DNA from: an uncultured Flavobacteriaceae bacterium
GTDB taxonomy: Bacteria > Bacteroidota > Bacteroidia > Flavobacteriales > Flavobacteriaceae
Length of the DNA: 64,000 nt
Direction of reading: 5' to 3'
Assembly (NCBI GenBank): GCA_943787365.1
Contig: CALSMD010000005.1
Location: forward strand, 62,001 to 126,000
A program made the position numbers and the translations under genes. Below the pieces are notes generated by a model, which saw nothing but the letters and a program-made list of their open reading frames with translations, did no database searches and was not told where the DNA came from. Shown piece by piece: positions 1-9,796 of this stretch. The number at the start of each line of letters is the position of its first letter. Position 1 is the stretch's first letter.

Positions 1-1719
1 GGGCAACTCAAATCCATCAACCACCCTGCACTGTCCGCCGCCAAAGACCCCGGGCAGGATGCCAACGACCTGTTTGGAATGCAAATTGACTACCATGCAT
101 TTGACTACGCCCGAACCCAGCGCAGCAACATCACCACCGCCGCAGTAGGTACCAACCAATACAATGGAAACATCAAAAACACCCGTTGGAACACTTCTGG
201 GAGTTTGCCAACCCCCAGAGAACACGTGTACAGTTACACCTACAACAAAAACAACTGGCTCGCCGGTGCCAATTTTTCTGCTACCGACAACACTCCCTCA
301 CCATTTCCGCCAGACATTATATCCACAGCCATCACAAACGCCGGGCAAACCCTTAACCTAAAAGCCACCAACAGCATCACCTTAAAACCAGGATTCCATG
401 CCAAAACAGGCAGTATATTCTCCGCAAAAATAGTAGAAGCCCCCCTCATCATCCCCGAAGGAGATTACGATGTCAGCAACATCACTTACGATGCCAATGG
501 CAACATCCAAACCCTCAACAGAAATGGCTATACCGGTGGTGGCAGCAACGCCATGGACAACTTCTCCTACAACTATAAACCAAAAACCAACCAACTCACC
601 ACCGTCACCGATACCAATGACAACCCTGATTCCGACCGCTACAGCGATTTAAAATCGCAAGGCAGCAGTGCCACCAACAACTACAGCTACAACAGCATCG
701 GACAACTGGTCTCCAATCTACAAGAGCAGATAAGCTATGAATACAATGCCGCAGGATTGGTCACCAAAATAAATACCTTTTCTGCAACCACAACCCCCTC
801 TTGGACCCGTATCTATGAAAACGATTTCTCATTGAATAGCGACGGAGATCCTACCTTCTGGACCTTTAGTAGCAGTAACAACCCTTCTGAACGTGTCTCT
901 TCAGTATTCTCAAACAGATATTCGACTCCTGTTAGGGGTTCAGATGTTGGAGGTTGCTCGGAACTATTAGAAACTTATGGAATGGCTGTTGCTTTAAGTA
1001 TGGACGATGCGACTGCCAAACGTGAGTTAAATGTTGCGCCCAACAAATTTCATAAACTCGACTTAGACGCCATCGTAAAACATACGTTATTTATGGACAG
1101 ACACGATCTTATTCAGGCCGCCGCAGGAGTTATCATCACCATAAAGGATGCCAATGGATTAATATTAGGCACTGTGGCACATAACAGCCCCAACCCAGTA
1201 GCAGCCTCTAATGTTGGTCCAAATAATCGAGCGTGCATACCTTATTTTACAACACACAGTAGCTTTGAATTCACGCCCACCACATCCACCATTACCATAG
1301 AAGTCCAGCGCGATTGTACATCAAGTGGAACTATTTTTATTGACAATATAAACCTGCAAGTCCCCACAGCCGCCAAACTGGCCTTTTTCTATGACGATCG
1401 GGGGCAGCGTGTACGCAAAGAAGTTTATAGTTCAGGGAATACCTATCTAACCTACTATGTACGGGATGCTTCTGGCAGTCCAATGGGCATTTATACTGGT
1501 GCGTTTGGACCCACAATACTCCAACCCACCGTGCTCAAAGAACACCCCATTTATGGCAGCAGCCGTTTGGGGGTCCACTACCGCGAGACAGGAACAGATG
1601 CCTACCAACTCACCGACCATCTTAGGAAATGTACGTGCCGTAATTATGAAAAATGGCGGAAATGCTGTATCTTTAACTGCGAAAACAGACTACTATCCCT
1701 TTGGGATGCCAATGCCTAA
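1..1719 (+). CDS. RHS/YD-repeat protein, 5' end outside window, frame broken near 1621
   Basis: The frame is open at base 1, so the gene starts upstream; the ATG at 79 is internal. The protein reads like the late part of a Bacteroidota RHS (YD-repeat) surface or toxin protein. It has a coathanger-like stretch (KPGFHAKTGSIFSAKI, about residues 95-110 from the 79 ATG), YD-type repeats such as ITYDANGNIQTLNRNGYTG and ISYEYNAAGLVTKIN, an inserted region rich in beta-strand-like sequence, then FFYDDRGQRVRKE and the start of the RHS core signature, YQLTDHL. The C at 1621 is extra compared with the copy at 4357-4383; after it the frame runs out of phase and stops at 1719. Codon use is C-rich (ACC, AAC, GCC), unlike the AT-rich cassettes downstream. 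The family assignment is firm; whether the product is a toxin carrier is inferred. Confidence 0.8.
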   Translation, partial: GQLKSINHPALSAAKDPGQDANDLFGMQIDYHAFDYARTQRSNITTAAVGTNQYNGNIKNTRWNTSGSLPTPREHVYSYTYNKNNWLAGANFSATDNTPSPFPPDIISTAITNAGQTLNLKATNSITLKPGFHAKTGSIFSAKIVEAPLIIPEGDYDVSNITYDANGNIQTLNRNGYTGGGSNAMDNFSYNYKPKTNQLTTVTDTNDNPDSDRYSDLKSQGSSATNNYSYNSIGQLVSNLQEQISYEYNAAGLVTKINTFSATTTPSWTRIYENDFSLNSDGDPTFWTFSSSNNPSERVSSVFSNRYSTPVRGSDVGGCSELLETYGMAVALSMDDATAKRELNVAPNKFHKLDLDAIVKHTLFMDRHDLIQAAAGVIITIKDANGLILGTVAHNSPNPVAASNVGPNNRACIPYFTTHSSFEFTPTTSTITIEVQRDCTSSGTIFIDNINLQVPTAAKLAFFYDDRGQRVRKEVYSSGNTYLTYYVRDASGSPMGIYTGAFGPTILQPTVLKEHPIYGSSRLGVHYRETGTDAYQLTDHLRKCTCRNYEKWRKCCIFNCENRLLSLWDANA

Positions 1720-2536
1720 CCGAAATATAGAAGGCAATTATAGGTATGGTTACCAAGGTGAGTTTGCGGAAAAGGATAAAGAGACTGGATTAAATGCGTT
1801 CCAATTGAGAATGTATGATGCTAGGATTGGGCGTTGGATAAGCCCAGATCCTTATGGAGAATTCCACTCACCTTATCTTGCAATGGCTAACAACCCAGCA
1901 AGTGTAACAGACCCAGATGGAGGGTGTACTACTAAAGGAGGTAGACCATGTGTGTTTTCAGTTATGGGAGGAACAGCGACAGATGCAGGAGGGAATATTT
2001 GGTCAGGTGCTGGAGACACACCTTCAGCGTTACATACGCCATTTGCATTAAGTGAAGTTTCTATTTCTAAAGGTAGAACTTTTTGGGATGATGTGAGTCA
2101 TGGGATATCTCTTTTTGCATCATTATTAGAAGGAAACAGTGGATCTACAATGTATGGAAATGGAACTGATAATCAAATGTCAAGAAAAGGCGATGGCGAA
2201 ATTTATGGTACTTGGGATTTTAATGAGATGATTATTCCAGGTAATAATCTCCCTTCATCCAATGGTGCTTTAAACAATATAAATGAAATAGTAGAAGCTT
2301 TAAAGCATTATAATAACCTTAAGCCTTTGATTTCGCCCCCTACAAGTGATGATACAACAGTTCAGGCTATTATATTTCATCTCCATGGTGTTATGGAAAG
2401 TAACGGTAATGTAGTGAAATCCGTAATTGATACAACTTATATAGATGTTCCTGTTACAACACCACGTACTAAAGACTCTGTTCGTCGTGCTAATGAAAAT
2501 ATGAAAAATTCAACTATTTATTGGTTAAATAACTAA
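1622..2536 (+). CDS. RHS core end and C-terminal tip A (continuation of the frameshifted gene)
   Basis: Removing the extra C at 1621 joins this frame to the preceding RHS core. It continues with LGNVRAVIMKNGG, YPFGMPMPNRNIEGNYRY and a closing core motif (ARIGRWISPDP, then YLAMANNPASVTDPDGG), the classic end of RHS cores. The variable tip begins near 1922 and is about 205 residues with no recognised domain. An open frame from 1457 overlaps the upstream part out of phase, but homology with the copy at 4356 shows the real frame starts at 1622. DNA composition changes from C-rich to AT-rich close to the core-tip junction, typical of exchangeable RHS tips. The stop is 1 nt before the next start. 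The tip may be a toxin; that is inference from architecture. Confidence 0.75.
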   Translation, partial: LGNVRAVIMKNGGNAVSLTAKTDYYPFGMPMPNRNIEGNYRYGYQGEFAEKDKETGLNAFQLRMYDARIGRWISPDPYGEFHSPYLAMANNPASVTDPDGGCTTKGGRPCVFSVMGGTATDAGGNIWSGAGDTPSALHTPFALSEVSISKGRTFWDDVSHGISLFASLLEGNSGSTMYGNGTDNQMSRKGDGEIYGTWDFNEMIIPGNNLPSSNGALNNINEIVEALKHYNNLKPLISPPTSDDTTVQAIIFHLHGVMESNGNVVKSVIDTTYIDVPVTTPRTKDSVRRANENMKNSTIYWLNN

Positions 2537-2537
2537 A

Positions 2538-3224
2538 ATGAAAAAGAAAATAATTTTACTACTGATAATATCATTTATTTACTTTTTTTCATGTAAAGAA
2601 AAAGAGTCAAAGAAAGAAAACACATATACAGAATTTGTTAATGATACTTTATTTATATATAATCAAAATGGTAGTATTAAAAGTAAAGGTCAATTAGATA
2701 ATAAATCAAAAAAAAATTGGTGGTTTTATTATGATGCTTCAGGCCATTTAAGAAGTAAAATAGAGTATAAAATAATAAATGATATTTGTTATGAAAACCA
2801 GGGTATATATTATAGAAACAACAATAGCATTGATTCTGATTTAAGTTCATTTTTTACAATTGAAATTGCAGACACTTTAAATCTTGGAAAGAATTTAGGG
2901 CAAATAAAAAGATATAATACTAATTTTAAAGGAGACGATAATTTGCTATCAGTAATTGTTAAAAATAGATATTCAGTTAACGAAGTTAAGAATGACACAT
3001 TTAGTGATGGGACCTTAACTCCATCATTTGGTATTTTTGCATTAAAAAAGGGGAAGCAGAAAATTAGTTTAATCCTTTTAGAAGAGGTTATAAATGAAAT
3101 TAAAATAAAAGAGGATTCTTCTGTGTTAAGAATTTTAAAACATAAAAAATACTTTGAGCGAGAAGTTTATGTAAAAGACACTATTGATTACCCTGATGGC
3201 GCTAGTATGTCACGTCATCGCTAG
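2538..3224 (+). CDS. lipoprotein, candidate immunity protein for RHS tip A
   Basis: A 228-residue protein begins 1 nt after the RHS tip stop codon, so the two are almost certainly co-translated. Residues 1-19 form a lipoprotein signal (hydrophobic core, then FFSC with the lipid Cys at 19). The mature part is Lys-rich, with a short motif like those of YwqK/MORN-type repeats (GHLRSKIEYK). The C-terminus DYPDGASMSRHR is encoded by a degenerate version of the first bases of the 185-bp repeat that follows, so the original end may have been replaced. Position behind a variable RHS tip is what an immunity gene would show, and a membrane-anchored lipoprotein would suit a periplasmic target. No family was recognised. 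Confidence 0.6.
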   Translation: MKKKIILLLIISFIYFFSCKEKESKKENTYTEFVNDTLFIYNQNGSIKSKGQLDNKSKKNWWFYYDASGHLRSKIEYKIINDICYENQGIYYRNNNSIDSDLSSFFTIEIADTLNLGKNLGQIKRYNTNFKGDDNLLSVIVKNRYSVNEVKNDTFSDGTLTPSFGIFALKKGKQKISLILLEEVINEIKIKEDSSVLRILKHKKYFEREVYVKDTIDYPDGASMSRHR

Positions 3225-3229
3225 TGCCA

Positions 3230-3414
3230 CCCCTGATGCCGCTAGTTTGCGCTCCCGCTAAGTTGTACTTAGTGGCGTCAGAGATTGGCAAGTCTCGCTC
3301 TCGCCACGCTATAGCGTGGTAACGTCAAAGATTAGTAGGAAGTATAGTATATGTAAAGTGAAAAGGGTTTTTAGCTAGTTTACGTCCACTAAGTACAACT
3401 TAGCGGGAGCGGGG
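3230..3414. repeat. 185-bp palindromic REP-like element, copy R1
   Basis: It begins CCCCTGATGCCGCTAG and ends TTAGCGGGAGCGGGG. The outer arms CGCTCCCGCTAAGTTGTACT (continuing TTAGTGG) and their exact reverse complement near the right end form a 26-bp perfect inverted repeat. Each arm folds on itself as a 9-bp hairpin around a TGT loop. A 16-bp perfect palindrome, CCACGCTATAGCGTGG, lies in the middle (3304-3319). It starts 5 nt after the stop codon of the preceding gene and ends exactly where an orphan RHS-tail reading frame opens. Copies R2, R3 and R4b differ from it at only a few positions, so they spread recently or are being homogenised. Confidence 0.9.
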
Positions 3415-3608
3415 AAAATATTTTCAGAAGTGCATTGGATTTACCTTTGCGTACACATTACGGTGTTTTTGATGGAAAACCATATGAGCCTTCAAAATTA
3501 TTTTGGCCAAGAGGAGCGTTTTTTCATAAACCTGTTTCAACTATTGCACCTAAACCAATAATTACTTTAGAAGTTGGACCACTAATTCAAGGAGAAATCG
3601 AACACTAA
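3414..3608 (+). pseudogene. orphan RHS C-terminal tail fragment (cassette B)
   Basis: This is an open frame of 64 residues without any start codon, running from the last base of repeat R1 to a TAA that overlaps the ATG of the next gene (TAATG). It reads ENIFRSALDL, then PLRTHYGVFDGKPYEPSKL and ends LIQGEIEH. Unlike cassettes C and D it keeps no RHS core, so it is only the 3' end of a tip whose upstream part was lost at the repeat boundary. It cannot be expressed alone. Its identity as an RHS tip is inferred from position in the array and from overlap with a lipoprotein gene, as in cassette A. Confidence 0.5.
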
Positions 3609-4171
3609 TGAAATACTTAAAAAAAATATTGATATTAGCTCTAATATTAGTTGGGTGTAAATCTGTTGACGTAAAGAGAATAAATGATTTTTACAGGGAT
3701 AAATATCCAAAAATTAATTCTTATAAGTTTACATCACATAAAGAAAAAGCAAGAAGTAAATTACTGCATTTTTATAATAAAGAGAGTAAAAAAAACAATA
3801 GTGGTTTTGCGATGATTGAATATTTTAGATATCCAAACGGTAATTTTGATGAGTTAAATACTGAAACTTTTTTTTATGAGAATGATAGTTTGGTAAAGGC
3901 TTATTACTTAAAATCGGACAAAAAAACTAAAGTTGAAAACATTACCAATGAATTAGCGATAGATACAAAAAAGACGAATGATTTGATATTGGAATTGTTG
4001 GTTAAAGGAAAATATGAGAAGTTAAGCCAATTGCATAAAGAATCTGAATACGCTGTAAGTGATGCAGGATTAATTTATGTTACTTTTTTAGATAAGAATT
4101 TAGATGTGTTACAAGGTTATATGTTTAATGAATTTATGGTAAATGAAGCTGGTGCTAGTTTATCAAAGTAA
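3608..4171 (+). CDS. lipoprotein, candidate immunity protein of cassette B
   Basis: The 187-residue protein has a clear lipoprotein signal: MKYLKKILIL followed by a hydrophobic run and LVGC, lipid Cys at 17. The rest is charged and AT-rich in codon use, with no recognised domain. Its ATG overlaps the stop codon of the orphan tip fragment (TAATG), which implies translational coupling in the ancestral operon. Repeat R2 begins at the base after its stop codon. The C-terminus AGASLSK resembles the residues that the repeat itself encodes in other genes of the array (PDGASLRSR), so an older repeat end may have been absorbed. Immunity function is inferred only from gene order. Confidence 0.55.
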   Translation: MKYLKKILILALILVGCKSVDVKRINDFYRDKYPKINSYKFTSHKEKARSKLLHFYNKESKKNNSGFAMIEYFRYPNGNFDELNTETFFYENDSLVKAYYLKSDKKTKVENITNELAIDTKKTNDLILELLVKGKYEKLSQLHKESEYAVSDAGLIYVTFLDKNLDVLQGYMFNEFMVNEAGASLSK

Positions 4172-4356
4172 CCCCTGATGCCGCTAGTTTGCGCTCCCGC
4201 TAAGTTGTACTTAGTGGCGTCAGAGATTGGCGAGTCTCGCTCTCGCCACGCTATAGCGTGGTAACGTCAAAGATTAGTAGGAAGTATAGTATATGTAAAG
4301 TGAAAAGGGTTTTTAGCTAGTTTACGTCCACTAAGTACAACTTAGCGGGAGCGGGG
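4172..4356. repeat. 185-bp palindromic REP-like element, copy R2
   Basis: Same structure as R1: 26-bp inverted ends, central palindrome and internal spacer. It differs from R1 at one visible position in the left half (GGCGAGTCTCG instead of GGCAAGTCTCG). It abuts the stop codon of the upstream lipoprotein gene with no gap. Its final G is immediately followed by RHS core sequence (TACCAACTCACCGACC), so the element replaces everything upstream of the core end in this cassette. Confidence 0.9.
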
Positions 4357-5339
4357 TGTACCAACTCACCGACCATTTAGGAAATGTACGTGCGGTGATT
4401 ATGAAAAATGGCGGAAATGCAGTATCTTTAACTGCGAAAACAGACTACTATCCTTTTGGGATGCCCATGCCTAACCGCAATATAGAAGGCAATTACAGGT
4501 ATAAATTCCAAGGACAAGAAAAAGACGCTGAAACGGGAAAAGAGGCTTTTGAGTTACGTTTGTGGGATGGACGAATAGGGCGGTGGCTGACGGTTGATCC
4601 TGCGGGGCAATATGCAAGCCCTTATTTGGGGATGGGAAATAATCCTATAAGTAGTATAGATCCAGATGGTGGATCAAGTTGTGGTGGCGAAGGAGAACCC
4701 CCATGTCCAACACAACAATTAGATGCAGTTGATTTAGGAACAATAGGAAAAAAAGGTTTTGATTTTAGTGGAATACCTAATTGGATGCAAAGTGGTCAGC
4801 CAGATTGGTGGAACACTTCATTTACAGGAAACTTATCAGATTATAACAATGATTTTGGAACTGATTATACCGAAGGAAATCAGTTAAATCAATGGCGTTA
4901 TCAAAATCATTATAAGCCTGAATACGATGATATGATTAGTAGTATACATGGGGCTACTAACCAAGCTGCTGACCTTGCTATGTACATTTTACCTACTGGT
5001 CCAGGAGTGCAAATTGGAACTAAAGCATTGCCTGTTTTAGGACGATATGCTTTAAGAGGATATAGATATGTTAAAGCAATTGCTTTAAAAATTGATGCCA
5101 TAGTGGTTCATAAATTGACGCCAAATTCAATCAAAATCTTAAGTTCTCCTTTTTCACGTCCTTCGATTGGGTATTCAGGTCAAAGAGCTTTGATAAAAAA
5201 CTTTAAAGGGTTTGTTCATACAGGAAGATATATTTTTAATAACCCAGAATCTATTTACACACCCAATACAGTAAACTATTTTAATAGGATATATACAGAT
5301 GGCAGTCGATTAAAAACAATAATAAAATCAATGTTTTAA
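4356..5339 (+). CDS. promoterless RHS core end plus tip C
   Basis: The frame begins at the right edge of repeat R2 (a GTG at 4356 is the first possible start). It encodes YQLTDHLGNVRAVIMKNGG, YPFGMPMPNRNIEGNYRY and the closing core motif DGRIGRWLTVDP with YLGMGNNPISSIDPDGG. A unique tip of about 220 residues follows, with a hydrophobic stretch near residues 210-240 (AADLAMYILPTGPGV) typical of pre-toxin regions. The first about 145 bp are nearly identical to 1602-1745, enough for homologous recombination with the main RHS gene. No promoter or signal peptide belongs to this unit, so it looks like a stored alternative tip. Toxic activity is not recognisable from the sequence. Confidence 0.7.
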   Translation: MYQLTDHLGNVRAVIMKNGGNAVSLTAKTDYYPFGMPMPNRNIEGNYRYKFQGQEKDAETGKEAFELRLWDGRIGRWLTVDPAGQYASPYLGMGNNPISSIDPDGGSSCGGEGEPPCPTQQLDAVDLGTIGKKGFDFSGIPNWMQSGQPDWWNTSFTGNLSDYNNDFGTDYTEGNQLNQWRYQNHYKPEYDDMISSIHGATNQAADLAMYILPTGPGVQIGTKALPVLGRYALRGYRYVKAIALKIDAIVVHKLTPNSIKILSSPFSRPSIGYSGQRALIKNFKGFVHTGRYIFNNPESIYTPNTVNYFNRIYTDGSRLKTIIKSMF

Positions 5340-5348
5340 CTTAGCAAA

Positions 5349-5807
5349 ATGGATTTTGAAGATAATTTTGAAAAAAAAGCAGGAAAATATATTAACACCT
5401 TTGAAAATAAAAAGATAACTTATTTTTCTGAAAAAAAAATAATAAGATTAAAGTTGTTGATTAAATACGTAAGTAATTATACACCAAAAAGTAAAATTAA
5501 GAAAGAAAAAGAGAGTGTCTTAAAATATCTATCCTTGTTAACTAATATTGATGATTCTCAAAATTTCAAGAAAAAAGACTATGCACATTTTGAAACTATT
5601 TATCTGTCATCTTCAGTAAATAAATTACACAAATTTGGTTTTAGGTTTAAATACGGTTGGGTTTTAGTTTTAATTTTAATTTTATTTATTGATTCTTTTT
5701 TCATCTATTTAATTGATATTTATAATATCCCAATAGCATCTATCATTTTTTTTATAGAACAATTAAGAAGGGACCTTAAAGCATACGAGGAAAATAAATT
5801 ATGGTAA
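5349..5807 (+). CDS. membrane protein, candidate immunity protein of cassette C
   Basis: The 152-residue, Lys-rich protein starts 9 nt after the stop of tip C. Residues 1-95 are hydrophilic and contain no recognised domain. A strong hydrophobic segment follows at about 102-123 (WVLVLILILFIDSFFIYLI), then a second short one (IPIASIIFFI) and a charged tail. Location behind an RHS tip and membrane insertion fit an immunity protein, but there is no sequence match I can name. Repeat R3 starts 1 nt after its stop codon. Confidence 0.55.
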   Translation: MDFEDNFEKKAGKYINTFENKKITYFSEKKIIRLKLLIKYVSNYTPKSKIKKEKESVLKYLSLLTNIDDSQNFKKKDYAHFETIYLSSSVNKLHKFGFRFKYGWVLVLILILFIDSFFIYLIDIYNIPIASIIFFIEQLRRDLKAYEENKLW

Positions 5808-5808
5808 A

Positions 5809-5993
5809 CCCCTGATGGTGCTAGTTTGCGCTCCCGCTAAGTTGTACTTAGTGGCGTCAGAGATTGGCAAGTCTCGCTCTCGCCACGCTATAGCGTGGTA
5901 ACGTCAAAGATTAGTAGGAAGTATAGTATATGTAAAGTGAAAAGGGTTTTTAGCTAGTTTACGTCCACTAAGTACAACTTAGCGGGAGCGGGG
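5809..5993. repeat. 185-bp palindromic REP-like element, copy R3
   Basis: Full-length copy with the variant left end CCCCTGATGGTGCTAG, otherwise matching R1. It lies 1 nt behind the stop codon of the cassette C membrane protein. Its right end runs straight into RHS core sequence (GAAATATAGAAGGCAATT), a later core position than at R2. The same element end is therefore joined to two different core breakpoints. Confidence 0.9.
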
Positions 5994-5995
5994 GA

Positions 5996-6826
5996 AATAT
6001 AGAAGGCAATTATAGGTATAAATACCAAGGACAAGAGAAAGACTCTGAAACGGGAAAAGAGGCTTTTGAGTTGAGACTTTGGGATGGAAGGATTGGACGG
6101 TGGTTGACGGTTGATCCTGCGGGAGAGTTTTTTAGCCCGTATCTAGGAATGGGAAATAATCCTATTTCTAATATTGACCCAGATGGTGGTTGTGTAAAGT
6201 GCGACCAAAATGCCGCAAATGGCTCTACATATACAGATGCATCAGGAGCAAGTTGGACAAAAGGAGCAGATGGTTGGAGTGCTGATAATTTTAGTGATAT
6301 TGGTGTCGATTTGGGTATGATTACCAACAAAGGTAATGGTGATAATCTTAATCCAGCTGTAATGTTAATGTTAACATCTGTTGAGAATTTAGGAGGAAAA
6401 GTTAAAATTCCTAATGTTGGAGATTTAGGACCAAGATTTACAAATATGTCTGGTTCTAATATAGATTTACCTAAAGGAGCTAAAATAGCTTCAGGGGTCT
6501 TAACTGCAATAAAAATAGGGGGTAATTTATATGATGTTGTAACAACTGAAGGTTCTCAGCAAGATTTAGCAGCAGAAGGTTTAGTTGCTAATATAGTAAT
6601 CGAAGGAATTAGTTATGTTTATCCTGTAATTGGGGTTGTAATAAATAGTGGACAAATTATGATGAGTACAGAAAGGTATCAAAATGCTATTCATGATTCT
6701 AGAGAAAGAGAGCAGCGAGAAAAATTAGAAGAAGGTCGCATTTTAGGTTTAGATCAACCAAAAGACCTTGAGTTTAGACAATCGGATGGTGTCATAAGAG
6801 ATTCTAATGGAAACCCTATAAACTAA
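5996..6826 (+). CDS. start-less RHS core end plus tip D
   Basis: The frame continues directly out of repeat R3 as NIEGNYRYKYQGQEKDSETG, then the closing core motif DGRIGRWLTVDP and YLGMGNNPISNIDPDGG. No ATG is available before the core motif (a TTG occurs at 6071), so the unit is probably silent. The tip of about 215 residues is new relative to A and C: a Cys pair (CVKC), a Gly/Asn-rich part (SGASWTKGADGW), a hydrophobic stretch (VIEGISYVYPVIGVVINSG) and a charged C-terminus. No enzymatic motif was recognised. It would be expressed only after recombination through the shared core into the active gene. Confidence 0.65.
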   Translation, partial: NIEGNYRYKYQGQEKDSETGKEAFELRLWDGRIGRWLTVDPAGEFFSPYLGMGNNPISNIDPDGGCVKCDQNAANGSTYTDASGASWTKGADGWSADNFSDIGVDLGMITNKGNGDNLNPAVMLMLTSVENLGGKVKIPNVGDLGPRFTNMSGSNIDLPKGAKIASGVLTAIKIGGNLYDVVTTEGSQQDLAAEGLVANIVIEGISYVYPVIGVVINSGQIMMSTERYQNAIHDSREREQREKLEEGRILGLDQPKDLEFRQSDGVIRDSNGNPIN

Positions 6827-6849
6827 TAAATAAATTAAAATTAAGGTAA

Positions 6850-7137
6850 ATGAATTTATTCAAAACCCTATTTTATGTTTTATATTCTTTTTCATATAAG
6901 ACAAATAAATCAATTGCAGAATGGTCTACTATTATAGTTATTTCTATTCTTCTAACTTTTAACTTGATAACTTTACTTGTTTTGTTTGATATACCAATAC
7001 AGAAAATTGGAAAGGGAGGGTTTAAGTTTATACCATTAGTTTTTATTGGACTTAATTGGTTATATTTTTTAAAGGGCTCCAAGTATCTTAAAATAATAGA
7101 AAATCCCCCTGATGGTGCTAGTTTGCGCTCCCGCTAA
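6850..7137 (+). CDS. small membrane protein, candidate immunity of cassette D, C-terminus supplied by repeat
   Basis: A 95-residue protein starting 23 nt after tip D. Two hydrophobic segments are visible: about 27-47 (IIVISILLTFNLITLLVLF) and about 61-73 (IPLVFIGLNWLYF). The last nine residues PDGASLRSR and the TAA stop are encoded inside repeat R4a, which begins at 7106, so the element has entered the coding sequence and the native C-terminus is gone or altered. Immunity function is inferred from gene order alone. Confidence 0.5.
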   Translation: MNLFKTLFYVLYSFSYKTNKSIAEWSTIIVISILLTFNLITLLVLFDIPIQKIGKGGFKFIPLVFIGLNWLYFLKGSKYLKIIENPPDGASLRSR

Positions 7138-7178
7138 GTTGTACTTAGTGGCGTCAAAGATTGGCAAGTCTCGCTCTC
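7106..7178. repeat. truncated 5' part of the REP-like element, copy R4a
   Basis: It matches the first about 72 bp of the full element (left end, left hairpin arm and the GTCTCGCTCT segment) and then stops at the start of another full copy. The join R4a/R4b therefore records one element landing inside another, or a recombination between two elements. It also provides the stop codon of the membrane protein at 6850. Confidence 0.85.
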
Positions 7179-7360
7179 CCCCTGATGCCGCTAGTTTGCG
7201 CTCCCGCTAAGTTGTACTTAGTGGCGTCAGAGATTGGCAAGTCTCGCTCTCGCCACGCTATAGCGTGGTAACGTCAAAGATTAGTAGGAAGTATAGTATA
7301 TGTAAAGTGAAAAGGGTTTTTAGCTAGTTTACGTCCACTAAGTACAACTTAGCGGGAGCG
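7179..7360. repeat. REP-like element, copy R4b (nearly full length)
   Basis: Complete from CCCCTGATGCCGCTAG to TTAGCGGGAGCG. Only the terminal GGG seen in R1-R3 is missing. It includes the central palindrome CCACGCTATAGCGTGG. It is the copy nearest to the transposase gene and is followed directly by diverged half-units. Confidence 0.9.
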
Positions 7361-7641
7361 ATTTAGATTGGCAGTCATTAGTTGAGGTGAAAGTGAAAAT
7401 TGTTTTAGCTAGTTTACGTCCACTAAGCGCAGCTTAGCGGTAGCGATTTAGATTGGCAGTCATTGTTGAGGTAAAAGTGAAAATTGTTTTCAGCTAGTTT
7501 ACGTCCACTAAGCGCAGCTTAGCGGTAGCGACTTTAGAGAGGCGTCATAAATTGTAGTCATGGTTTTGAAAACATAAAAATTTTGTATTTATGTAATTTT
7601 TTAATAAGTTTATGACCACTAAGTACATCTTAACGGTAGTG
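7361..7641. repeat. two tandem 85-bp half-units and one degenerate unit of the REP-like element
   Basis: 7361-7445 and 7446-7530 are tandem repeats of about 85 bp. Each ends with a diverged right arm (ACGTCCACTAAGCGCAGCTT, then AGCGGTAGCG). The arm folds as CTAAGC-GCA-GCTTAG followed by GGTAG, similar to the tetranucleotide-plus-hairpin form of REP sequences. A weaker copy lies at 7605-7641 (CCACTAAGTACATCTTAACG). The cluster ends 21 bp before the transposase start codon, as expected for sequences that a RAYT recognises. Confidence 0.75.
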
Positions 7642-7661
7642 TTTTTTATTAAATTAGTGCA

Positions 7662-8219
7662 ATGAGTAGAAACTATAAATTTCATAATAAGTCGGGCTTA
7701 TATTTTGTAAGTTTTGCAACTGTAAACTGGATAGATGTTTTTACAAGGCAGGTATATTTTGATGTTTTAGCAGAGAGTATTACGTATTGTAGAAAGGAAA
7801 AAGGCATGGAATTATATTGTTATTGTTTTATGCCAAGCCATGTACATTTTATTTTTAGGTCAGCCAAAGAACAACCCTCCGAATTATTACGAGACTTTAA
7901 GAGGCATACATCTAAAAAATTGATTGAAGCCATAGAAAACAGTCCACAAGAAAGCCGAAAAGAATGGTTATTATGGATGTTTGAGCGAGCGGGAAAAAAG
8001 AATGCAACAACCAGTAAACATCAATTTTGGCAACACCATAATAAACCTATAGAGTTATGGAGTGAAAAGGTTATTAAACAAAAAATAGATTATATCCATA
8101 ACAATCCAGTAGAAAGTGGTTTTGTAACTAATACAATAGATTGGAAATACTCAAGCGCAAGGAATTATCAAGACGATAATACTGTTTTAGAAATAGATAG
8201 TGTTGGGTTTTTAGGATAG
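7662..8219 (+). CDS. REP-associated tyrosine transposase (RAYT, HUH/Y1 family)
   Basis: A 185-residue Y1 transposase-type protein. The HUH motif is visible as SHVHF (His60 and His62) and the catalytic Tyr as Y144 in DYIHNNPVESGF, the spacing usual for TnpA_REP proteins. N-terminal residues GLYFVSFATVNWIDVF are also typical of the family. Such enzymes nick and join single-stranded DNA at REP hairpins. No partner gene such as tnpB is present, and the gene is flanked upstream by a dense cluster of palindromic repeats. The ORF is intact, so the enzyme may be active. That it moves the 185-bp elements of this array is an inference from proximity and from repeat structure. Confidence 0.88.
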   Translation: MSRNYKFHNKSGLYFVSFATVNWIDVFTRQVYFDVLAESITYCRKEKGMELYCYCFMPSHVHFIFRSAKEQPSELLRDFKRHTSKKLIEAIENSPQESRKEWLLWMFERAGKKNATTSKHQFWQHHNKPIELWSEKVIKQKIDYIHNNPVESGFVTNTIDWKYSSARNYQDDNTVLEIDSVGFLG

Positions 8220-8221
8220 TT

Positions 8222-8449
8222 TTATTGTGCTAATTTTTGCGTAAGGTCAGCTTTAAGAACAAAAGCAGAGAGGAAATCTTTAACGGTTTCTTTTTGTTTT
8301 TCAGAAAGGTTTTGAGCCTTGTTAAACAACGTGAGTAAATCATTATCTTCTATGGTGTCTTGTGCTTTATTTTCCCCGTGAGCCAATCTATCCAAAGAAA
8401 TCTCCAATACTTCTGCCATACGTTTAGCAACCTCTACGGCTCTTTTACG
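8222..8449 (-). pseudogene. truncated XRE-family regulator (C-terminal part only)
   Basis: Read on the minus strand, the sequence encodes RAVEVAKRMAEVLEISLDRL and then a helical tail (LLTLFNKAQNLSEKQKETV). This is the C-terminal half of a common XRE/HTH_3 regulator type. The helix-turn-helix itself is missing. Upstream the frame hits a TAG at 8450-8452 that lies inside a remnant of the repeat arm (ACAACTTAGCG). The gene seems to have been cut by an element end. The ATG at 8419 is internal to the ancestral gene, so a functional product is unlikely. Confidence 0.65.
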
Positions 8450-8505
8450 CTAAGTTGTCCCTTATAAGGGAATGTTTGGTATTCCATGATAAAGACTTGT
8501 AATAG

Positions 8506-8610
8506 AGGTATTTAGAAGAACATCGTTACATCAGTTCAACAGAGAGATACCAGCAAGACGATTTAGAAAATTTACATAAAACTATAAACACGTTCCATCC
8601 ATTTAGTTAA
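8506..8610 (+). pseudogene. short gene remnant, possibly an RHS-tip 3' end
   Basis: A start-less frame of about 34 codons ending at a TAA reads EEHRYISSTERYQQDDLENL and ends NTFHPFS. The STERYQ segment also occurs in tip D (MMSTERYQNAIHDS). This may be the end of another RHS tip left on the far side of the transposase. The match is short, so the call is tentative. Confidence 0.25.
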
Positions 8611-9064: not shown

Positions 9065-9796
9065 ATGATCAAATATAGTTGCATTGTATTGCTGATAGCA
9101 AGCTTTACAAGTTGTAGAACCCTGTCCGTTCAGCAAGAACGTCAAATGAAAACCACACAAAACATACAACTTGGTACCATAGGTGTGCACAAGAATTTTA
9201 TGTTAGAACAAGATTATAATTTTGCCGCCTTCCCACAATTCCAGCATCCGATTAAAGTGCAAGTAAATGGAGTCCCGTTTAATAAAGCCAAATTGAAGGC
9301 CTTTGAAAATGCGAAACGCACTCAAAACAAGTCTGTCGTTGTAAAGTATGTAGATTCTGTGAAGCCAAAACCCCACTTTCTAAAACTAGAAATTGCAGAC
9401 CGTGTGGCTGTTTTGAAGAGCTTAAACAGTGAGGCAAATAAAGATGTTTTTCAGTTTTTACAGACCAAAAGTAACGCACATTTAGTATCCACTATTTCAG
9501 TGGTTTTCGATGCTGAAACCGCTGCGAAATTAAGCACTGCTCAAGAAGTGTTTTTGGAACATACAGGAATCAATAACTATGTCTTAAAAACCTATGATAC
9601 CAATAAAGAACAACATTCGATACACTTTAGTGAAGGCGTTGTATTTGGGTATCAAACCTCAAAGGCATGTTGGAAAGAAAACAAAAAACGCCAACTTGAA
9701 ATTGTAGATTTCGTAGAAAGTGACGATCGCTGTCCAATCGATACCCACCGACTTGCGAAAAAAGCCAAAAAGAAAATTAACTACAAAAATTTTTAG
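9065..9796 (+). CDS. lipoprotein of unknown function, first gene of the T2SS/pilus-like operon
   Basis: I chose the ATG at 9065, not 8888, because it places a lipoprotein signal at the N-terminus (MIKYSCIVLLIASFTSC, lipid Cys at 17). The 243-residue product has no domain I recognise. It is basic near the C-terminus (AKKAKKKINYKNF) and contains two Cys residues there (SKACWKE, DDRCPID). It stands 2 nt before the next gene in a tightly packed operon with prepilins and a GspF protein, so a role at the envelope in assembly or secretion is plausible. Confidence 0.7.
   Translation: MIKYSCIVLLIASFTSCRTLSVQQERQMKTTQNIQLGTIGVHKNFMLEQDYNFAAFPQFQHPIKVQVNGVPFNKAKLKAFENAKRTQNKSVVVKYVDSVKPKPHFLKLEIADRVAVLKSLNSEANKDVFQFLQTKSNAHLVSTISVVFDAETAAKLSTAQEVFLEHTGINNYVLKTYDTNKEQHSIHFSEGVVFGYQTSKACWKENKKRQLEIVDFVESDDRCPIDTHRLAKKAKKKINYKNF

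Follow-up and report, generated by a model that had tools for sequence, protein, structure and literature searches.

Results

RHS tip array with REPIN-like elements at the module ends

The window (the whole stretch of 64,000 nucleotides that was analysed, from a marine flavobacterium) contains an RHS tip array, in which an RHS gene with tip A is followed by three displaced tip–immunity modules, and four copies of an element of 182–185 bp are located at the module ends, with a RAYT gene adjoining. An unexpected link between RAYT and RHS genes is real and family-wide in the Flavobacteriaceae.

All features of the array are on the + strand. The 3′ part (core) of the main RHS gene (1..1719, extending upstream (L038/L086)) stops before tip A and reached 19.4 bits with the Pfam model RHS_repeat, i.e., under the cut-off of 22. 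The Rhs_assc_core domain and tip A are encoded at 1457..2536 (TIGR03696, 55.8 bits, cut-off 32.5), out of frame with 1..1719 in this assembly. The array of tips A to D with their small genes described in the initial annotation stands, but the RHS gene counted there as one is interrupted between its core and tip A. Candidate immunity gene A (immA, 2538..3224), the terminal residues of which come from element-like DNA as judged by eye, is followed by element E1 (3230..3414). Module B consists of a tip only (63 aa, 3417..3608, without Pfam family), which starts at the right end of E1 and is followed by immB (3608..4171) and E2 (4172..4356). Module C (4356..5339; TIGR03696, 54.3 bits) comprises an RHS fragment starting with YQLTDHL and tip C, and is followed by immC (5349..5807) and E3 (5809..5993). 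Module D (5994..6826, frame read from 5999; TIGR03696, 48.6 bits, match starting at profile position 15) comprises an RHS fragment from NIEGNYRY onwards and tip D; its candidate immunity gene, immD (6850..7137), ends inside a truncated left end of the element (73 bases, 7106..7178). E4 (7179..7360), three further right-arm hairpin repeats (7403..7660, copies at 7403, 7488, and 7599), and the RAYT gene (7662..8219) complete the array. Repeated RHS core ends (above the TIGR03696 cut-off in units A, C, and D, with unit B being tip only), differing tips, and a small gene after each tip were thus all found, as in an orphan-tip array, and the downstream RHS fragments with their small genes are regarded as putative tip–immunity modules.

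The elements E1 to E4 differ pairwise at 0–3 of 182 positions, in agreement with the near-identical element of about 185 bp that had been proposed for the module ends, and the RHS fragments of the array are mutually just 84–92% alike. Left ends had been placed at or just past the immunity stop codons, which applies to immA, immB, and immC (5, 0, and 1 nt); the stop of immD, however, is within the truncated copy, whose DNA encodes the last immD codons, so that the elements in the window start anywhere between 32 nt ahead of the last base of the immunity stop codon and 5 nt past it. Right ends open into RHS-array sequence at the three proposed points (E1 into tip-only B, E2 at YQLTDHL, E3 at NIEGNYRY), but E4 opens into hairpin repeats and not into RHS sequence. 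Positions 21–46 of the element are the inverted counterpart of positions 157–182 (26 of 26 bases), and the single-strand fold has a z-score of −8.06. The element is REPIN-like, i.e., two inverted hairpin arms around a spacer, and with the RAYT gene adjoining, the borders are RAYT-linked palindromic elements as annotated. For RAYT-linked REPs, a GTAG tag beside the hairpin is described in PMC3733652. The sole GTAG in E2 is at position 106 in the spacer, not adjoining an arm, and CGTC occurs at 47, 94, and 154, beside the arms and in the sense opposite to them.

The protein encoded at 7662..8219, annotated as a RAYT flanking the array, matched NF047646 (REP_Tyr_transpos) with 92.3 bits (cut-off 80), and the IS200 model with 22.8, below its cut-off of 55. 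Its residues H60 and H62 (HUH) and Y144 were conserved without exception among the 19 proteins aligned (motif names in line with PMC6006769). Compared by eye, the motif is closest to the Bacteroidetes subclass 2.6 of that paper, where the REPs of this subclass are termed atypical. Three genomes (G036, G061, and G100) have the locus and downstream genes in common with the window (by eye), with RAYTs 79–85% identical to that of the window; the G061 copy has a stop. At G000:C2, three RAYT genes that are almost identical to one another lie between RHS pieces.

Candidate immunity genes and tips

Among Pfam and NCBIfam models, no match above the curated cut-off was obtained for the immunity candidates A to D. 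immD resembles the Bfi1 family immunity protein NF053699 (E-value 2.3e-7, 30.8 bits), below the cut-off of 100, and the label “envelope protein” for the small genes reflects signal- or TM-like stretches judged by eye. The tip-bearing frames had no Pfam family match, and, beyond the own genome, none of tips A to D had a homologue among the 180 loci fetched (E-value 1e-3). immC weakly matched a gene of the G033 array (28% identity, E-value 9e-6). In G001, tip 2 matched an RHS unit of G043 (27%), one immunity gene matched the gene just 3′ of the L177 RAYT in G106 (23%), and a second one, 3′ of an element remnant, has a 64% identical homologue in the G033 array.

The element in the genome and genus

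The own genome contains eight element loci, namely the array and seven others, and one of the seven directly adjoins an RHS remnant. Four of its five full-length copies belong to the array, and the fifth borders on an RHS remnant (E-values of the array copies in the own-genome search 1.0e-88 to 3.1e-93). The assembly is of draft quality (contamination 7.45%), although the same locus type is also present in the one-contig genome G001. The element is dispersed, multi-copy, and mostly extragenic, with certain copies overlapping gene 3′ ends. Within the genus, it was found in 3/3 genomes with an RHS hit and in 3/15 without (G012, G014, and G016; Fisher p = 0.025). Placement without preference for RHS had been named as evidence against the annotation; copies away from RHS do occur, but so does an association with RHS hits within the genus. 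The seven other loci and the copies in genomes without an RHS hit rule out that the element is exclusive to RHS. A phage origin was also considered, and a 21-base element pattern had no match in viral contigs. At the glyA locus, G001 carries two RHS-type genes, one with 1158 codons that reaches 33.5 bits with RHS_repeat (cut-off 22) and one with 1697 codons that matches the core, whereas the RHS part in G000 comprises just 49 codons and terminates at a full element. The array copies E1 to E4 share variants mostly absent from the glyA and G017 copies.

Linkage of RAYT and RHS genes across the Flavobacteriaceae

RAYT matches within 3 kb of each other were merged into one locus. Across 100 Flavobacteriaceae genomes, with RHS-bearing ones counted, 21 of 46 RAYT loci had an RHS core no more than 5 kb away (0.49 expected); near RAYTs include remnants, the query was taken from an RHS locus and favours RHS-linked kin, and the locus coordinates for these, the converse, and the control counts were entered by hand. 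All 21 were on the same strand as the RHS core and 1.1–3.4 kb downstream of it, and at least one small co-oriented ORF was located in between at 19 of them, window included (exceptions: L122 with an 813-codon gene and L126 with none of ≥80 codons). At least 17 of the 21 were independently backed by TIGR03696 among the matches listed, and an enlarged RHS list yielded 21/48. The other 25 of the 46 loci were not near RHS; the RAYTs of G000:C2 were scored likewise despite an adjacent RHS N-terminal part, given that RHS had been searched with the C-terminal core as query. In the converse direction the association is modest, 24 of 144 RHS cores having a RAYT within 5 kb and 120 having none. Among the matches listed for the same genomes, control transposases were near RHS in 1/61 (rve) and 1/83 (DDE_Tnp_1) cases, so a general transposon richness of RHS loci was not seen for these two; G068, with RHS on contig C18 only, was left out of both lists (none of its listed rows was on C18).

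On the RAYT tree, from which rows with a match under about 130 query residues were left out, 11 changes are required to explain the distribution of the RHS label, and no fewer than 6 of them are forced. On this tree, the link arose or disappeared on at least six occasions, and a single inherited RAYT–RHS fusion is ruled out. Outside the Flavobacteriaceae, 1 of 20 RAYT loci was behind an RHS core (one locus per genome from the top of the matches listed, skipping G505 (contig start) as well as G506 and G576 (partial matches), and with L205 cut about 0.5 kb upstream of the RAYT), leaving a phylum-wide spread unsupported. Several of these RAYTs, for instance those of L191, L192, and L210, come immediately after a long gene on the same strand (same-strand ORFs considered).

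REP-like hairpins were counted by a home-made criterion, with control regions selected by offset and not randomly, giving 49 in 36.0 noncoding kb at RHS loci with RAYT, 14 in 24.7 kb at those without, and 2 in 15.1 kb of controls (p = 4e-6 and 0.027). Of the RHS loci without a nearby RAYT, 11/20 had no noncoding REP-like hairpins.

Individual loci and arrays without RAYT

Four-core RHS arrays were found in G033, G056, and G080, in which no RAYT match was obtained; RAYT is therefore not needed for arrays. That the RAYT/REP system delimits modules, as annotated, is supported in the window, and the building or shuffling of modules that was also suggested there is not necessary for such arrays. 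G033 matched neither RAYT nor element, its array containing two copies of another repeat of roughly 215 bases. Movement of cassettes without the element, also named beforehand as contrary evidence, is in part what this array suggests, given the immunity homologue that it has in common with G001. At L115 and L127, an orphan module, an immunity gene, and a RAYT or RAYT remnant are located directly behind genes for an acyl-CoA dehydrogenase and TrkH, respectively, and no element was seen by eye at the 5′ border of either module. At six other loci whose 3′ side was inspected, hairpin repeats start about 35 nt or less behind the small gene (by eye). A total of 38 merged RAYT loci had first been scored as not near or were in genomes without RHS hit; 20 were examined, of which L171 is actually behind a divergent RHS unit, and no RHS match was found at the others beyond L181 and L190. 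The L181 RAYT is behind a set of PAAR, effector, and small genes (PAAR 81.4 bits), and the L190 RAYT follows a SUKH-like gene, below cut-off. No empty site or before/after strain pair was found, and therefore no module event was seen.

Discussion

We favour tip turnover by ordinary recombination, with RAYT/REP elements as settlers. Spelled out as an array of displaced tips formed by recombination, with RAYT/REP settling behind immunity genes and the copies then acting as junctions, this reading has about an even chance of being correct. New tips would be installed at the main gene through RHS-core recombination, and older tip–immunity modules would be left downstream, both by analogy with orphan rhs modules. 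In Flavobacteriaceae, RAYT/REP elements would settle time and again downstream of immunity genes in toxin modules, as the association and the gene order suggest. One REPIN-like element was copied to every module end in this genome, as four near-identical copies sharing variants show, and these identical direct repeats could then be junctions for module gain, loss, and truncation, consistent with element ends coinciding with RHS truncation points.

The somewhat unlikely alternative that RAYT/REPs are pure passengers, collecting on tolerant ground behind immunity genes and playing no part in module exchange, fits a toxin locus that is fast-changing and dispensable. The elements in genomes without RHS hit, the four-core arrays without RAYT match, the 120 RHS cores lacking a nearby RAYT, and the outside-family RAYTs directly after long genes are also in its favour, but tolerant ground does not account for rve and DDE_Tnp_1 showing no RHS excess among the matches listed, or for element ends being RHS truncation points at three window borders and at glyA.

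That RAYT and REPIN, as a domesticated single-strand transposase system, were co-opted in Flavobacteriaceae as border machinery of polymorphic toxin archives, with arm cutting behind immunity genes promoting the joining, loss, or swap of modules, appears quite unlikely. We consider it improbable that the RAYT built the archive by single-strand cleavage of the arms, with element–module–element as a RAYT-mobilised cassette. A RAYT with intact HUH and Tyr residues beside the elements, terminus-exact junctions, elements far more alike than the RHS fragments, the RAYT triplet of G000:C2, and the modules behind the acyl-CoA dehydrogenase and TrkH genes at L115 and L127 would suit such a process, and in vitro, TnpA-REP of E. 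coli processes REP as single strands (PMC8266576). Arrays without RAYT, the immunity gene relative in the element-less G033 array, the element-free 5′ borders at L115 and L127, and the single RHS-linked locus outside the family argue against it. Selection for hairpins that stabilise, terminate, or damp the toxin–immunity transcript is very improbable. The position of elements and hairpin repeats at the ends of small genes and the reported REP preference for ORF 3′ ends (PMC3733652) agree with it, but it accounts neither for the presence of a RAYT gene and of right-end junctions within RHS sequence nor for the 11 hairpin-less RHS loci.

With REPIN/BIME and RAYT (TnpA-REP), the element shares inverted hairpin arms, multiple and mostly extragenic copies, and a RAYT beside copies, but here the copies are concentrated at toxin-module ends and the sole GTAG is in the spacer. 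The E. coli Rhs elements likewise have a transposon-like element, the H-repeat, behind RHS tips; the H-repeat is a DDE-type element, whereas the enzyme here is of the HUH single-strand type, and DDE_Tnp_1 had no match in the own genome among the matches listed. The enterobacterial orphan rhs-CT/rhsI modules (PMC3967940) are similar in that 3′ fragments with immunity genes come after a main RHS gene, and that paper likens them to displaced fragments. It demonstrates that an orphan recombines into the main rhs gene, not the displacement step. In contrast to these, RAYT-linked repeats stand between the modules of the array described here, and its tips are putative toxins. Toxin–immunity pairs of Bacteroidetes are also known from the TANFOR polymorphic toxins (PMC7073777), where the Figure 1 legend abbreviates “Tnp, transposase” and the text consulted neither discusses this transposase nor names RAYT or REP; this “Tnp” is possibly an earlier sighting of the RAYT–toxin neighbourhood. 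In the literature searched, RAYT, Rhs, and REP were not found treated together.

We know of no agreed host function of RAYTs. Their recurrent, strand-consistent linkage to toxin genes provides a concrete place to ask what RAYTs do and how toxin tips are gained and stored: either RAYT/REP participates in toxin exchange, or the linkage to toxin–immunity genes shields a selfish element from loss.

Structure of the array

Window positions 1–8610 carry the 3′ part of an RHS gene, tip A and its candidate immunity gene, followed by three further units of a tip and a candidate immunity gene (modules B, C, and D) and, 3′ of the modules, by a hairpin repeat cluster and the gene of a REP-associated tyrosine transposase (RAYT, NF047646; 7662–8219). 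Core and tip A of the single RHS gene proposed by the initial annotation are both present, but their frames differ (window 1–2536) and the main gene is not continuous in this assembly, which reflects either a true break or a sequencing error. Candidate immunity gene D is similar to a curated immunity model but scores under its cut-off. The near-identical elements between the tip-immunity units were confirmed: four REPIN-like copies of 182–185 bp (E1–E4; 3230–3414, 4172–4356, 5809–5993, and 7179–7360) stand at module ends and differ at 0–3 of 182 positions, whereas the RHS fragments 3′ of them are only 84–92% alike. The element consists of inverted hairpin arms around a spacer, with 26 of 26 bases complementary, and its single-strand fold has a z-score of −8.06 relative to shuffled sequences. 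Since E1–E4 have variants in common (e.g., alignment columns 105, 118–123, 131, and 137) that are mostly missing from the copy at glyA in the same genome and from the copy in the congeneric genome G017, they were copied or homogenised locally. A further type of dispersed repeat, CCTCTACGGCTCTTTTACGCTAAGTTGTCCCTTATAAGGG with its variants, was observed at window 8430–8480, in locus L079, and near 7640 in locus L115, and borders an RHS fragment in the congeneric genome G001.

Distribution of the element in the genome and genus

The draft genome comprises 2.30 Mb in 8 contigs (completeness 88.8%, contamination 7.45%); the window lies on C5, and element DNA outside the array was found at seven loci, all on contig C1. 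Of the five full-length copies, four are E1–E4 and the fifth lies at C1:381073, where its left end adjoins the 49 codons that remain of an RHS-type gene behind glyA. At the corresponding glyA site, G001 (one contig) carries a 1158-codon gene (RHS_repeat over cut-off) and a 1697-codon gene matching the RHS core query and DUF6443. Most of the remaining partial copies fall between genes, and two of the partial copies have RAYT genes nearby (L035, L037). By eye, C1 112–150 kb and 695–725 kb (L035/L036 vs. L037/L032) are near-duplicate segments with uvrA-like, fumC-like, and other genes, which are either genuinely duplicated or, given the 7.45% contamination of the draft, derived from a mixture of strains.

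Element matches were obtained in 5 of the 17 other genomes of the genus, two of which had an RHS hit (G001, G017). Across the genus, the element was present in 3/3 genomes with an RHS hit and 3/15 without (Fisher p = 0.025), in line with a preference for RHS at the level of genomes. The element is not exclusive to RHS: copies in G001 and G017 lie partly in or within ~3 kb of RHS loci and partly elsewhere, and the element is also present in G012, G014, and G016, where no RHS hit was obtained.

Association of RAYT and RHS genes in Flavobacteriaceae

In a survey of 100 Flavobacteriaceae genomes from 100 genera, including the genome under study, the window RAYT had matches in 32 genomes, the RHS core in 33, and both in 23 (Fisher odds ratio 14.8, p = 3e-8). 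Within RHS genomes, 21 of 46 merged RAYT loci had an RHS hit no more than 5 kb away, where genome share predicts 0.49; the neighbourhood first noted at the array recurs in the family. The ratio was 20/41 (0.46 expected) with the own genome left out and 21/48 (0.53 expected) when TIGR03696 matches were added to the RHS list. Control transposases of the same genomes were near RHS at expectation among the matches listed (rve, 1/61; DDE_Tnp_1, 1/83). The reverse relation was weaker, with a RAYT within 5 kb of 24/144 RHS cores. Outside the family, an RHS core was near 1 of 20 examined RAYT loci (Fisher p = 0.0013 vs. 21/46), and on this sample the link is therefore a feature of the family and not of RAYTs at large.

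All 21 near RAYTs are located downstream of the RHS match on the same strand, 1.1–3.4 kb away, and some are broken or truncated by contig ends. When the 20 near loci besides the window were fetched (L111–L130), 19 of the 21, window included, had a small co-oriented ORF (at least 80 codons) between RHS and RAYT, the exceptions being L122 with an 813-codon gene and L126 with none. Hairpin repeats between small gene and RAYT were seen by eye in all six loci whose 3′ sides were inspected, and the noncoding DNA of RHS loci contained REP-like hairpins at a higher density than control stretches did. When 20 of the 38 remaining RAYT loci were retrieved, one further RHS case emerged (L171), along with one RAYT behind a PAAR effector set (L181; G101:C41:279000–293000), where a PAAR protein, a large effector-like gene, a small gene, and a RAYT follow in order at 2190–6921. 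At 1116–2653 in L177 (G106:C161), a RAYT precedes a gene with weak similarity to one of the G001 immunity genes. Judging from these two loci, RAYTs may also lie beside toxin-immunity sets of other kinds.

When association with RHS was mapped onto a tree of 58 RAYTs, 11 changes were required, against a mean of 14.3 for shuffled labels (14 of 500 shuffles gave a value as low), and well-supported branches force at least six, indicating repeated gain or loss of the link. One of the loci appears to be old: the window, G036, G061, and G100 have RHS, small gene, RAYT, and the same set of downstream genes (prepilin-like, by eye) in common, the three RAYTs being 79–85% identical to that of the window, with a stop inside the G061 copy. 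G001 keeps the locus with the RAYT match absent. Among 180 fetched loci, the window tips had no homologue outside their own genome.

In a search of open-access literature, no paper brought RAYT, Rhs, and REP together, and no account of a RAYT–RHS link appeared among the papers listed. The Figure 1 legend of PMC7073777 has transposase among its abbreviations and, as far as a legend can tell, the RAYT–toxin neighbourhood may have been seen earlier without comment.

Formation of the archive

The orthologous archive of G001 carries different tips; element DNA holds the ends of two of its immunity candidates, one unit starts at QLTDHL directly from a 64-base element left end, and a different repeat forms one of the borders. 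The own genome has a second RHS locus on C2, made up of an N-terminal portion of RHS, one tip-immunity pair, and additional pieces, with three RAYT genes standing between them. These RAYT genes are nearly identical and are accompanied by another hairpin family (CACGAATCCTTTCGTG) at 4075–8481 of L085 (G000:C2:18000–31000); frames from both sides run into element DNA there.

That the RAYT itself builds the archive would agree with element ends that fall where RHS sequence is truncated, both at three borders in the window and at glyA, with element copies that look younger than the modules between them, and with a hairpin repeat also upstream of the orphan fragment in L123. Insertion of elements into the RHS core followed by ordinary recombination between them would, however, give the same junctions, and terminus-exact borders are thus no proof of RAYT joining. 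Moreover, arrays need no RAYT: in G033, G056, and G080, a single contig carries a group of four closely spaced RHS cores, and the genome lacks a RAYT match. The G033 array (L136, G033:C116) yielded neither a noncoding REP-like hairpin nor an element match in the respective scans, and encodes a 64% identical homologue of one G001 archive immunity gene; two copies, 85% alike, of another repeat of ~215 bases lie at 5166–5379 and 9450–9666. In L127 and L115, an orphan module begins immediately after the stop codon of TrkH and of an acyl-CoA dehydrogenase, respectively. No element is visible at this 5′ border, and on the other side of each module come a small gene and a RAYT or RAYT remnant. Construction of the archive by the RAYT is quite improbable, and a role as border machinery of toxin archives is unlikely.

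Orphan modules in L115, L117, L119, L123, L126, and L127 start just before YYPFG/YYPGG, near the TIGR03696 domain start, as though breakage were favoured there or no shorter fragment were of use.

We favour a reading in which arrays would arise from tip displacement by recombination, with RAYT/REP systems settling behind the immunity genes afterwards, be it because the ground is tolerant, because linkage to an indispensable immunity gene protects them, or for active use. Once in place, the identical direct repeats likely affect later turnover of the modules.
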